Positions 171-5,713 of a DNA stretch of 5,713 nt are shown here, in pieces. The stretch is taken from positions 12,055 through 17,767 of the forward strand of contig JACQWU010000179.1 in assembly GCA_016209155.1 (NCBI GenBank), given 5' to 3'. Source of the stretch: Candidatus Desantisiibacteriota bacterium (GTDB taxonomy: Bacteria; JACRDZ01). Every line of letters begins with the position of its first letter. Position 1 is the first letter of the stretch. A program made the translations under genes and the position numbers. A model generated the notes under the pieces. That model saw only the letters and a program-made list of their open reading frames with translations. It was not told where the DNA came from and made no database searches.

Positions 171-1463
171 ATGATAAGACGATATACGCTGGAAAAAATG
201 GGGAAAATATGGGATGAGGAAAATAAATTTCGTAAATGGCTGGAAGTTGAAATAGCAGTCTGCGAAGTATATGCGGGAATGAAAAAAATACCTCAGAAAG
301 TGCTGCTAAATATTAAAAATAAAGCTAATTTCAATATCGCAAGAATTGATGAAATAGAAAAAATTGTAAATCATGATGTTATTGCTTTTCTTACAAATGT
401 TTCGGAATACGTCGGCCCTGATTCGCGGTATGTTCATATGGGACTTACTTCTTCTGATATTCTTGATACTTCAATGGCACTCCTTTTAAGAGAAGCGGCG
501 GATATTCTGATAGTTGATCTTAAAAATTTTGCAGCTATATTAAAAAAATTGGCGCGCAAGTATAAGAAAACCGTGATGATAGGACGGTCACATGGAATTC
601 ATGCCGAACCTATAACTTTTGGACTCAAGCTTGCTTTATGGTATACGGAAATTTTGAGAGATATTGAGCGTATGAACCGTGCACGGGAAATTATAAGCTT
701 TGGTAAATTATCCGGTGCTGTAGGGACATTTTCCAATATTGATCCTATAATAGAAGAAAAAGCATGCAGGATACTAAAACTTAGACCTGCTCCGGTTTCA
801 AGCCAGATCATTCAGCGTGACAGATACGCAGAGTATATGAGTGTGCTGGCTGTTATTTCAACTACTGTTGAAAAAATAGCTGTTGAGATAAGACATATGC
901 AGAGGACAGAAGTGCTTGAACTATCAGAACCTTTTGGCAAAGGACAAAAAGGTTCATCCGCAATGCCCCACAAGAAAAATCCTATTTTGTCTGAGCGGCT
1001 TACAGGTATGGCGCGTATTATTCGCGGTAATTTAGTGCCTGTGCTTGAGAATAATGCCTTATGGCACGAACGGGATATCAGTCATTCTTCGGTTGAGCGC
1101 GTGGTTTTCCCTGATAGTACTATTTTGCTTGATTATATGCTGGTAAAAGCAGCGGATATGCTTGAAAATATTGTTGTATATCCTGAAAATATGATAAAAA
1201 ATTTGAATAGAACCAGAGGATTAATTTTTTCCCAGCGCGCAATGCTTTCTTTGGTTGATAAGGGTTTTACCCGTGAGGAAGCTTATAAAATTATCCAGAG
1301 GAATGCGCTTTTAGTATGGGATAAAGATACTGATTTCAGGACTTTACTGCTTAATGATACTGAAATAAACAAAAATTTAACAGAACAGGATATCGATAAA
1401 ATTTTTGACCTTAATTATTATTTGAGAAATATTGAAAAAATTTTTAAAAGGGTAGGAATTTAA
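171..1463 (+). CDS. purB: adenylosuccinate lyase
   Basis: A 430-residue member of the fumarase/aspartase superfamily, complete and almost the same length as Bacillus subtilis PurB. It removes fumarate from SAICAR, giving AICAR, and from adenylosuccinate, giving AMP; both are cytosolic steps of purine synthesis. The order is an N-terminal helical domain (about 1-110), the central helix-bundle domain (about 111-360) and a C-terminal helical domain. The superfamily signature SSAMPHKKNP is at 262-271. Catalytic and binding residues known from B. subtilis sit at identical numbers: His68 (NHDV), His89 (YVHMG), His141 (GRSHG), Lys268 and Glu275. TSSDILDT is at 93-100. All key residues are present, so the enzyme should be active. 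The ATG at 171 has AGGAG six bases upstream. pyk follows after 23 bases on the same strand, so the two are probably co-transcribed. No other purine gene is in the window. Confidence 0.97.
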   Translation: MIRRYTLEKMGKIWDEENKFRKWLEVEIAVCEVYAGMKKIPQKVLLNIKNKANFNIARIDEIEKIVNHDVIAFLTNVSEYVGPDSRYVHMGLTSSDILDTSMALLLREAADILIVDLKNFAAILKKLARKYKKTVMIGRSHGIHAEPITFGLKLALWYTEILRDIERMNRAREIISFGKLSGAVGTFSNIDPIIEEKACRILKLRPAPVSSQIIQRDRYAEYMSVLAVISTTVEKIAVEIRHMQRTEVLELSEPFGKGQKGSSAMPHKKNPILSERLTGMARIIRGNLVPVLENNALWHERDISHSSVERVVFPDSTILLDYMLVKAADMLENIVVYPENMIKNLNRTRGLIFSQRAMLSLVDKGFTREEAYKIIQRNALLVWDKDTDFRTLLLNDTEINKNLTEQDIDKIFDLNYYLRNIEKIFKRVGI

Positions 1464-1486: not shown

Positions 1487-2902
1487 ATGCGTAGAACTAA
1501 AATTATCTGCACTATTGGACCTGCATGCAGCCAACCGAAAAAGCTGGAAGAGCTTATATTAAGCGGAATGGAAGTAGCCAGAATAAATTTTTCTCATGGG
1601 ACACATGAGGAAAAATCAAGAGAAATAAAGCAAATAAGGCAGATATCAAAAAAGCTTAACCGTCAAATTACAATTTTGCAGGATTTATGCGGACCGAAAA
1701 TAAGAGTAGGGGAAGTTGAAAATAAAGAAATTTATTTAAAAGAAGGCACGACAATAACACTCACATCAAAACCTCAAGTCAGCAATAATAAGACTCTATT
1801 TATCTCATATCCGTATCTGGCAAAAGACTTATATTTAAAAGATTCCATATTACTTGATGACGGCAAGCTTGAACTTGTCGTTATAAAAAAAATAAAAGAT
1901 GAAATTGTATGTGAGGTGAAAAGAGGCGGAAAATTAAAATCCAAAAAAGGTGTTAATTTCCCTTCGCGATCACTTAGTATTCCGGCTTTGACCGGAAAAG
2001 ATATTCTTGATGTAAAATTCGGTCTTTCAGAGAAAGTGGATGTTATCGCGCTTTCTTTTGTGAGACAGGCGGATGATATTATTAAATTGTGTAAACTTAT
2101 TCGGAGTTTGGGCGGGGATATACCTATAATTGCAAAGATTGTAAAATATGAAGCAATAGAAAATCTTGAAAAAATTCTGGATGTCTGTGACGGAATTATG
2201 GTCGCACGAGGCGACCTTGGGGTTGAAGTCCCGATAGAGAATATTCCCATATATCAAAAACTTATTATACGTAAAGCAAATGAGCATGGTAAACCTGTAA
2301 TAACCGCCACCCAGATGCTTGAATCAATGATTGAAAATCCTACTCCGACAAGAGCGGAAGTTACTGATATATCCAATGCGATTTTAGACGGAACTGACGC
2401 AATTATGCTTTCAGCGGAAACTTCTATAGGAAAATATCCTGTCGAAGCTGTAAAAATCATGGCGCGGATAGCGGAAAAAACAGAAGAAATTATTAATTAT
2501 CCCGAATTGTTCAAAACCCGCAAGATCGGATCATATCAAATGATTGCTGATGCTGTTGCTCACGGAGCATGTCAGATGGCGTATGATCTATCAGCCAACG
2601 CTTTAATCACTTTCACAAGTTCAGGACATACTGCAAGACTGATATCAAAATACAGGCCTCATGCACCAATATATGTGTTTACAACAAATGATGAAGTTGC
2701 AAGAAAAGTCAACCTTTACTGGGGCACCAGGTGTTTTAAGATAAAAGAAGTTAAAACTACAGATGAAATGTTTAAACATGCTTTAGATACTGCAAAAAAA
2801 GAAAAAATTATACAAAAAAATGATACGGTAATACTTACTGCCGGCATTCCGGTAAAAGAAAAAGCTAATACGAATTTAATAAGGGTGGTGAAGGTTAATT
2901 GA
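1487..2902 (+). CDS. pyk: pyruvate kinase
   Basis: A 471-residue pyruvate kinase of normal bacterial length, converting phosphoenolpyruvate and ADP to pyruvate and ATP. Visible landmarks are TKIICTIGPA (4-13), ARINFSHG with Arg32, Asn34 and Ser36 (31-38), LQDLCGPKIRVG (64-75) opening the B domain (to about 168), ARGDLGVEVP with metal ligand Asp243 (240-249), TATQMLESM (273-281), AILDGTDAIMLSAET (298-312), and the C-terminal domain from about 345 with SGHTARLISKYRP. There is no extra C-terminal PEP-utiliser domain. Lys71 with Leu67 is the pattern of K+-independent enzymes. The active-site motif normally read as KIE is Lys217-Ile218-Val219: the metal-binding glutamate is replaced by valine (codon GTA, 2141-2143), one base from GAA. 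Apart from that, the PROSITE-type signature around it is intact. The gene follows purB by 23 bases, and its last 8 bases overlap the end of the convergent gene. Confidence 0.95.
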   Translation: MRRTKIICTIGPACSQPKKLEELILSGMEVARINFSHGTHEEKSREIKQIRQISKKLNRQITILQDLCGPKIRVGEVENKEIYLKEGTTITLTSKPQVSNNKTLFISYPYLAKDLYLKDSILLDDGKLELVVIKKIKDEIVCEVKRGGKLKSKKGVNFPSRSLSIPALTGKDILDVKFGLSEKVDVIALSFVRQADDIIKLCKLIRSLGGDIPIIAKIVKYEAIENLEKILDVCDGIMVARGDLGVEVPIENIPIYQKLIIRKANEHGKPVITATQMLESMIENPTPTRAEVTDISNAILDGTDAIMLSAETSIGKYPVEAVKIMARIAEKTEEIINYPELFKTRKIGSYQMIADAVAHGACQMAYDLSANALITFTSSGHTARLISKYRPHAPIYVFTTNDEVARKVNLYWGTRCFKIKEVKTTDEMFKHALDTAKKEKIIQKNDTVILTAGIPVKEKANTNLIRVVKVN

Positions 2903-3308
2903 TTTTTCTTAGCACAACTTTTTCATTGTCTTTATAAGCAACAGTTTCATAAAATTTTTTAAAACGCGGATAAGATTCGGGCGGAAGTAATATGGAGTTA
3001 GTTTCACTGTGACGTGAGAGATATATTATTCCGTCTTTAAAATAACAATTTATTTTGTAATATGCAAAATCTTCTTTTATCTCAAAATTTTTTGGAAGTT
3101 CTTCAATTTCATAACCATCGGGTATTTTTATTTCACTTATTTCATCCGAACTGCCGGCCCTTGCAATTTGAACAGGGTATTTACGTTTTTCAGACTGGGA
3201 AATAAAACTGGTTGAAACCAGTCGATAAAGAATATTCGGATTAAAAATAATAAGTTTTGATGTGATATCCGCAAAATTTTGCGCGGCAAAAGAAAATTCC
3301 GTATTCAC
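2895..3308 (-). CDS. C-terminal part of the frameshifted DUF3857 protein (DUF3858-like)
   Basis: This frame holds the final 137 residues counted from a GTG at 3308, but the GTG is unlikely to be a real start. There is no Shine-Dalgarno sequence before it, and family-like sequence continues upstream in the same frame to about 3359. The segment has alternating beta-strand character. It ends with YPRFKKFYETVAYKDNEKVVLRKIN-type sequence, resembling the C-termini of DUF3857 proteins, where a region with Tyr-Pro and Phe-Tyr precedes a final charged 'KVVL' strand. I infer that it is the C-terminal beta-sandwich detached by the frameshift. Its TAA stop lies within the last codons of pyk on the other strand, leaving no room for an intergenic terminator. 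Expression as a separate protein seems improbable. Confidence 0.7.
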   Translation of the reverse strand: MNTEFSFAAQNFADITSKLIIFNPNILYRLVSTSFISQSEKRKYPVQIARAGSSDEISEIKIPDGYEIEELPKNFEIKEDFAYYKINCYFKDGIIYLSRHSETNSILLPPESYPRFKKFYETVAYKDNEKVVLRKIN

Positions 3309-3352
3309 AGGGACATCCAGATTATTAAAATCTGAAAATGAATAGGAAGTTA

Positions 3353-4843
3353 CTATAGAAGATGGACACCATGTGTTTTGTTTACAAGGTTTTCAAACAA
3401 TTGGAGATATTTTTCGGGTTCAGTATATTTCAGGCTTGCCCTCATTTGCATGGCATCATCTCCTGTATAATAAGTTTTCGCATCGCATTTTATTGAGCCA
3501 TCCGGTGATATTACAGCTTTAATTGTTCTTGACCTGTTATAATCAATAGAACTTTTAAGCGTGGTACTTTTGAATTCAGCTTTATTATCTGTATCTCTAA
3601 TAATCCATGCAGTATGGTTTTGATTGCTGCCCGGAAATTCATTTATGTTTCCGACTTCGACTGTGGGGTCAAGCCAATATGTTTTTTCCTGTGTTTCAGC
3701 ATAGACTATCATATGATTAAACTGTGAAAGAGTAGGGGTGTTTAAATCTATCTCGTCATTATTATCCGAAAATAGTAATGCCGGATAAGCTTTTATCTCT
3801 GCTTCTCTCAGCATAGTTATAAGCAAAGTACTCTGATCTTTACAGTCTCCGTAAGCATTTTTAAATATTTCGGAAGCGGTATGCGGTTTGATAGAGCTTA
3901 TTCCCCATTCAAGTCCGACATAGCGTATGTTTTTTTCAATAAAATAAAACAAAGCTTTTATTTTTTCTTCAGAATTAGTTTTATTCTTAATCAGCTCTTT
4001 CACTTTACTTTTTATTAAAGGATCAGGTGCTATACTTTCTTTTATAAGTTTTATAAACTCCGGGGCCATATCATCCCAGCTTTTTGCGGTTGTTATCCGC
4101 ATCCATGGAGCAATCTTATACATAGAAGGCATTACAGGCTCAGTTACAATTTCATTGATATTTAATTTCTCCCATGTATAAGTAGTATATTCCTTATATT
4201 CGGATACATCAGGTATTTGCTCAAAATTATAATAAGTGGTTTTAAAAGGCAATTTTTTTGGCAAAGTAATTGAATATTTTGAAAGCATTATTGGTTCTGA
4301 AAATTGAAAAAACCAATCAACGCTGTATCCGTTTGAAAGCAGAAGAGGTTTACTTTTTATAACAGCCTCATATTCAATTATTGATCCTGGCTCAACAGCA
4401 GGCATGGATACAACTTTTTGTTTAATATCACTGTATAGATTGTATCCTGCGTATGGTGTTATCTCATTGAATGCTTCTTTAGACGGCAAAACTATTGTTC
4501 CGTCAGATGTAATAGTCCGTGCAAAGCTAAATGCAGCATTTTGAAAGGATGAATTATATGCCACACTTATTTCACCAAAATCCTTACCTCTATCATTTAA
4601 GATTTTTATTATCTGATGTATTTTTGATATTATTTCTCCATTTTCATAGATGATATCGGAGGCGCTGTCCAGAAGCATAATTGCTCCTGCATTTGGATAT
4701 TCTTTTGCGCCGGGAGTATTTAAATATCCGAGTTCTTTTTTTATTATAATAGGTTTTGGGGTACATCCAAAATGAGTAAGCATGAAAGAAAAAATACAAA
4801 TATTAAATATAAAAATTTTAAGCGGGGATTTAATTGATTTCAT
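3353..4843 (-). CDS. DUF3857 and transglutaminase-like lipoprotein, N-terminal part
   Basis: This frame encodes 496 residues before the premature TAG. Residues 1-26 look like a signal peptide: lysines at 2, 5 and 9, a hydrophobic core at 10-22, then Cys27. The lipobox HFGC has glycine before cysteine but an unusual -3 residue, so lipidation is likely rather than certain. About 55-205 matches the DUF3857 beta domain. About 290-400 is a transglutaminase/protease-like core with the expected triad: Cys334 (YGDCKDQS), His377 (FNHMIVY) and Asp392 (WLDPT). The natural substrate of this family is not established; an envelope or periplasmic location follows from the signal peptide. The ATG at 4843 is preferred because it gives the whole signal peptide, but no Shine-Dalgarno sequence precedes it. 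A REPIN-like repeat ends 17 bases upstream, beyond which lies the parvulin gene on the same strand. Confidence 0.85.
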   Translation of the reverse strand: MKSIKSPLKIFIFNICIFSFMLTHFGCTPKPIIIKKELGYLNTPGAKEYPNAGAIMLLDSASDIIYENGEIISKIHQIIKILNDRGKDFGEISVAYNSSFQNAAFSFARTITSDGTIVLPSKEAFNEITPYAGYNLYSDIKQKVVSMPAVEPGSIIEYEAVIKSKPLLLSNGYSVDWFFQFSEPIMLSKYSITLPKKLPFKTTYYNFEQIPDVSEYKEYTTYTWEKLNINEIVTEPVMPSMYKIAPWMRITTAKSWDDMAPEFIKLIKESIAPDPLIKSKVKELIKNKTNSEEKIKALFYFIEKNIRYVGLEWGISSIKPHTASEIFKNAYGDCKDQSTLLITMLREAEIKAYPALLFSDNNDEIDLNTPTLSQFNHMIVYAETQEKTYWLDPTVEVGNINEFPGSNQNHTAWIIRDTDNKAEFKSTTLKSSIDYNRSRTIKAVISPDGSIKCDAKTYYTGDDAMQMRASLKYTEPEKYLQLFENLVNKTHGVHLL

Positions 4844-4853
4844 AATTTTTTTG

Positions 4854-4881
4854 ATTTTATTGTAGGGGCTTGATTCATCAA
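4854..4881 (-). promoter_or_regulatory. candidate promoter overlapping REPIN copy 2
   Basis: On the - strand, TTGATG (4881-4876, 4 of 6 to the -35 consensus) and TAAAAT (4859-4854, 5 of 6 to the -10 consensus) are 16 bases apart. The -35 lies in the repeat arm and the -10 in the flanking AT-rich DNA. Transcription would begin near 4847, about 4 bases before the ATG at 4843, giving an almost leaderless message. That would fit the missing Shine-Dalgarno sequence. It is a pattern match only; the gene may instead be read from the parvulin promoter outside the window. Confidence 0.25.
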
Positions 4882-4928
4882 GCCCTTTTTTAATGTCTTT
4901 TTCGTGTTCGATGAATCGAACCCCTATA
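4861..4928. repeat. REPIN-like paired palindrome, copy 2
   Basis: Same design as the element at 54-109. TGTAGGGG (4861-4868) begins a perfect hairpin GGGCTTGA/TCAAGCCC (4866-4873 with 4878-4885), loop TTCA. An 18-base T-rich spacer (4886-4903) follows. The right hairpin (4904-4911 with 4916-4923) has loop TGAA and one mismatch (4905 against 4922). The end reads CCCCTATA instead of CCCCTACA, so the right GTAG is ATAG. Both loops carry the same change relative to copy 1 (TTCA for TTTA, read from each GTAG side). The element fills most of the 85-base gap between the two - strand genes, and its right end directly touches the parvulin stop codon (4931-4929). Confidence 0.85.
4866..4891 (+). terminator. 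terminator-like hairpin plus T-run, + direction
   Basis: The 8-bp GC-containing stem of the left REPIN arm (4866-4885) is followed by six T residues (4886-4891), which has the form of an intrinsic terminator for + strand transcription. No + strand gene ends here, so if active it would only stop antisense transcripts entering the parvulin gene. On the - strand neither arm is followed by a T-run, so it should not separate the two - strand genes. The T-run may be just part of the spacer. Confidence 0.3.
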
Positions 4929-5713
4929 CTATTTATTAACTTCTATTACCGCATTTTTGCGCAAGTTATATAACCAGTTGATGTATCTTGATTCCATTCT
5001 ACTTTGGAGAAGAGCATTTTTAATATCTTCATGCAGATCATTAAACTGGACATAACGTCTATCTATTACCTGAATAATATGATATCCAAATTTTGTTTTC
5101 ACAGGATCGCTTATTTCTCCCTGCTTAAGACTAAAAACTGCTTCGCCAAAACCTTCAACCATCATATTTTTTTTAAAATAACCCAGGTCACCGCCTTTTT
5201 CGCGGCTGGAAGCATCCTCTGATTTTTCACGGGCAAGATTTTCGAAATTTGCTCCATCCTTAAGCTGTTTTTTTATATTGTGCGCCTCTTCTTCGGATTT
5301 AAGAAGAATATGCCTTGCTCTTACTTCTTCTTCTCTTGGAAGCATTTTCCTTTCTTCAACAAAGATTATATGCAAACCATAACGTGTTCTAAGCGGTTCA
5401 GAAAATTCTCCGACTTTTAGCCTGGTCAGCACATCTTCAAATTCCGGTATCATGTCTCCGCGCTTAAAAAATCCCAGATCTCCGCCTTCAGATGCGCGGA
5501 CATCTTCAGAATATTTTTTGGCTGATTCTTTAAAATCAGATCCCCCAGTCAGTTCTTTATAAATACTATCTGCTTTTTCTCTCGCTTTTTTTTCTTCTTC
5601 AGAATTTGCATCAGGCATAATTTTAATCAGGATATGCCTTGCATGCGTTTCTTCACCGGTATGAAGAAAATATTCGCGCACTTCACTTTCGGTGACATCT
5701 ACCTGAGAGCGTA
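4929..5713 (-). CDS. SurA/PrsA-like peptidyl-prolyl isomerase with two parvulin domains (5' end outside window)
   Basis: The frame is open through the right edge, so the N-terminus is missing; 260 full codons are visible. A GTG at 5681 is internal: the frame continues upstream as RSQVDVTESE, typical of the sequence just before the first parvulin domain in SurA-like proteins. Counting from 5681 as residue 1, parvulin domain 1 spans about 12-110 (ARHIL with His16, GGDLGFF, GLHII with His104) and domain 2 about 119-207 (ARHIL with His124, GGDLGYF, GYHII with His201). A C-terminal helix follows, then a strand ending IEVNK. Both domains keep the conserved histidines and the GGDLG motif, so both could be active isomerases. 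The family folds or escorts exported proteins in the periplasm. A SurA_N-type chaperone domain and signal peptide are expected beyond the edge. SurA, PrsA and generic PpiC cannot be told apart here, so no symbol is given. Confidence 0.92.
   Translation of the reverse strand, partial: RSQVDVTESEVREYFLHTGEETHARHILIKIMPDANSEEEKKAREKADSIYKELTGGSDFKESAKKYSEDVRASEGGDLGFFKRGDMIPEFEDVLTRLKVGEFSEPLRTRYGLHIIFVEERKMLPREEEVRARHILLKSEEEAHNIKKQLKDGANFENLAREKSEDASSREKGGDLGYFKKNMMVEGFGEAVFSLKQGEISDPVKTKFGYHIIQVIDRRYVQFNDLHEDIKNALLQSRMESRYINWLYNLRKNAVIEVNK

Follow-up and report, generated by a model that had tools for sequence, protein, structure and literature searches.

A pyruvate kinase gene with a valine codon at the metal-binding glutamate position in a fragmented draft genome, probably through a base error

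Results

The window, by which we mean the whole stretch of 5,713 nucleotides that was analysed, carries a complete pyk gene with purB on one side and a convergent gene of the DUF3857/transglutaminase type on the other (Table 1). The pyk frame is open through all 471 codons, and its GC3 is 0.282 vs 0.293 for purB. In profile searches the pyk product scored 571.9 bits against TIGR01064 (cut-off 306.4) and 395.1 against PF00224 (cut-off 30), and both PF00224 and PF02887 aligned to it along the entire length of the profile. The full-length match and the order of the domains are the same as in bacterial pyruvate kinases, for which we used the solved structures 2e28, 3t05 and 1pky together with the rabbit muscle enzyme 1a49. 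Judged from its sequence, the product is a pyruvate kinase by descent; its activity is in doubt.

Table 1. Features of the pyk locus (positions counted from the first base of the window)
Feature	Position	Strand	Evidence
purB, adenylosuccinate lyase; upstream neighbour of pyk, used as error control	171..1463	+	
pyk, pyruvate kinase, 471 aa, complete	1487..2902	+	TIGR01064 571.9 bits; PF00224 1-328/328; PF02887 1-114/114
Lys217, the catalytic Lys in KIE, kept	2135..2137	+	strictly invariant column
GTA, Val219 instead of the metal-binding Glu of KIE	2141..2143	+	Glu in 113/113 homologues
GAC, Asp243 of ARGDLG, the other protein residue that binds the catalytic metal, kept	2213..2215	+	strictly invariant column
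DUF3857/transglutaminase-type gene, probably in two frames through an indel at about 3356-3392	2898..4843	-	N-terminal match to 3kd4; weak DUF3858

The reason for this doubt is a single codon. In pyruvate kinase structures, the Glu of the KIE motif and the Asp of ARGD bind the catalytic Mg2+. An earlier note on this DNA had read Val in place of that Glu, and both its codon position and its residue numbering are correct, as GTA at 2141-2143 encodes residue 219, a Val, within the segment IIAKIVKYEAIENL. The motif and the Asp partner had likewise been placed correctly, since ARGDLG begins at residue 240 and its Asp is thus residue 243. All other invariant catalytic residues are common to pyk and the known enzymes, including the one from rabbit muscle, whereas at the metal-binding position of KIE pyk has Val rather than Glu. 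GTA differs from GAA by one base, and GAA is the commoner Glu codon in pyk (28 GAA, 6 GAG).

Conservation of residue 219 was examined in pyruvate kinases from 60 comparison genomes and the named genome collection (n = 112), to which one homologue from a viral contig was added (n = 113). The column holds Glu in 112 of 112 homologues and, after this addition, in 113 of 113; the viral protein, the one pyruvate kinase found among the viral contigs, is 39% identical to the pyk product. Among 32 strictly invariant pyruvate kinase columns, pyk departs at residue 219 only and keeps the other 31, among them Arg32, Asn34, Asp66, Arg73, Lys217, Asp243, Thr275, Ser309 and Glu311. Across 46 columns with at least 98% of one residue, which were picked using the same relatives, 100 of the 112 relatives show zero departures. 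The nearest pyk found in the comparison genomes is approximately 51% identical. Three genomes of the same phylum (G001, G002 and G003) carry five pyruvate kinase genes (loci L018, L031, L115, L116 and L117), which belong to the same family at about 39-44% identity; all five have KIE where the pyk described here has Val219.

The same residue was followed beyond this set. Glu is present in distant pyruvate kinase-like proteins, at about 26-35% identity, wherever the alignment is clean. An apparent Leu in a homologue from a Sphingobium plasmid (L250) looks like a local misalignment, as its LKVEAIDNL contains the Glu. A pattern scan of 386 further genomes, judged from the matched sequences, gave no other pyruvate kinase with K-x-V at the matching spacing before ARGD. 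Around Val219 itself the alignments are gapless, including those with 2e28 and 3t05, and their flanks are conserved, which rules out a shift in alignment register. No new acidic residue stands out near Val219, Glu222 being common in the pyruvate kinase family. Lastly, the literature search, with the terms used, gave nothing useful about mutants or human variants of the KIE Glu, and this residue goes unmentioned in the main text of PMC10176505.

We also asked how far the draft genome, which is 78.8% complete and consists of 352 contigs, can be trusted at the level of single genes. rpoB is an essential, single-copy gene. On contig C276 (L257, 760-3970) it is split across two frames near 2768, where there is no run of N; an RpoB of the same phylum is matched in one frame as far as its residue 674 and in another from its residue 685 on, and about 10 residues are missing. 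A living cell would not be expected to carry a broken rpoB, so the cause of this break is almost certainly an error of assembly or of sequence. Within the window, the DUF3857/transglutaminase-type gene stops at 3353, and the open frame 2898-3392 has a DUF3858-like C-terminus, albeit a weak one (E 0.033, below cut-off). The N-terminal part of this gene matches 3kd4, which we take to carry both DUF3857/transglutaminase-type and DUF3858 domains. An indel some 450 bp away from pyk has thus probably split this gene too, which would point to errors in the local sequence. Scaffold gaps are present on contigs C113 and C11, and the N gap on C113 (L123) at 12044-12054 ends directly ahead of position 1 of the window. 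Also on C113 (L123), the product of cheB (4024-5013, minus strand) reads AASTGGPNLPAGVVIVQHM and looks, by eye, about ten residues short after GGP, possibly through another small assembly deletion.

Substitutions appear to be a different matter. As an error control, PurB shows 0 departures in 62 strictly invariant columns, and purB, gltX, rpoB and groEL together show one conservative departure among 394 such columns. Unlike its indels and misjoins, the substitution error rate of the draft therefore looks better and would not seem obviously high. Mis-assembly driven by a repeat was rejected for the GTA codon, as no other place in the draft matches its 27-base context, even when up to 3 mismatches are allowed. 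A separate observation concerns residue 252 of PurB, which is Ser (RTEVLELSEPF), with Glu in 28 of 29 homologues.

The earlier note had also proposed looking for a second pyk or a pyruvate phosphate dikinase. Neither a second pyk nor a duplicate carrying Glu was found in the 78.8%-complete draft by family search and DNA search, and only one PF00224 gene is present. A gene for pyruvate phosphate dikinase (PPDK) does exist, as the note had considered, but it is broken as assembled. On contig C11 (L124, 1-2213) the first frame matches positions 17-530 of TIGR01828 and the next frame positions 656-862, so that positions 531-655, about 125 residues, are missing; the frame changes at about 1548-1563, where the two frames meet within a few bases at an A-rich junction with no run of N. 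From its sequence, this break could be either a misjoin or a pseudogene. Contig C337 encodes a second PEP-utilising enzyme, which looks intact; its frame of 591 aa and its complete PEP-binding domain suggest that it is PtsI-like. As to how much an organism depends on pyruvate kinase, the search turned up none in 12 of the 52 near-complete genomes used for comparison, which suggests that a true loss would be survivable.

Discussion

The earlier note had seen in the GTA codon either the mark of an impaired enzyme or an error in the sequence. Error fits the evidence better, and we infer that the base at 2141-2143 specifically is wrong. We regard it as probable that GTA is a one-base consensus error of a fragmented draft and that the cell has a Glu codon and an ordinary Mg2+-dependent pyruvate kinase. 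This is the best reading because the Glu is invariant and no relative has Val, because pyk is without other decay, because GTA lies one base from GAA, and because the draft is faulty, with rpoB and PPDK broken and a probable indel in the window itself. If it is right, the organism would have Glu at 219, and Glu219 and Asp243 would together hold the metal that binds PEP, as knowledge of the family leads one to expect. Two observations count against it, namely that the defects seen are indels and misjoins, none of them a substitution, and that purB, gltX, rpoB and groEL depart so rarely from their invariant columns. The defects in rpoB, PPDK and the DUF3857-type gene thus make an error at GTA plausible but do not prove it.

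An impaired enzyme is the less favoured option. The substitution might be a real and recent inactivating point mutation in a lineage or strain that no longer needs pyruvate kinase, in a gene that has not yet decayed further. The Val enzyme would then be inactive, and PPDK and the PTS would suffice to convert PEP to pyruvate. The near-complete genomes in which pyruvate kinase was not found, the presence of the PtsI-like enzyme and of a PPDK gene, and the failure to find a second pyk in the draft are all consistent with this possibility. However, pyk shows no further decay, so that the mutation could only be of very recent origin, and PPDK, the supposed replacement, is itself broken as assembled; we consider a recent inactivation unlikely. 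Another way for Val219 to be real is that the enzyme works, the catalytic metal being held by only Asp243, substrate and water, or a different metal being used. The open frame and the other catalytic residues are indeed kept, as they would be under selection. Against this stand the Glu in every homologue examined and the Val in none of them, the result of the K-x-V scan, the Glu of the distant pyruvate kinase-like proteins, and the lack of a new acidic residue nearby that could stand out as a substitute, and we find a functional variant of either kind quite improbable. Its narrower form, a working pyruvate kinase that lacks a metal-binding Glu invariant in the examined homologues and holds the metal through only Asp243, substrate and water, seems to us more improbable still. 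The weights given here to the three readings are judgements and were not calculated.

Were Val219 both real and functional, it would mean that a metal ligand can be lost even though every homologue sampled keeps it. The main lesson is that, when a fragmented draft from a deeply isolated lineage shows a change in a catalytic residue, the reads should be checked before the change is taken as biology, and the broken rpoB and PPDK genes from the same draft offer a concrete example of why such caution is needed.
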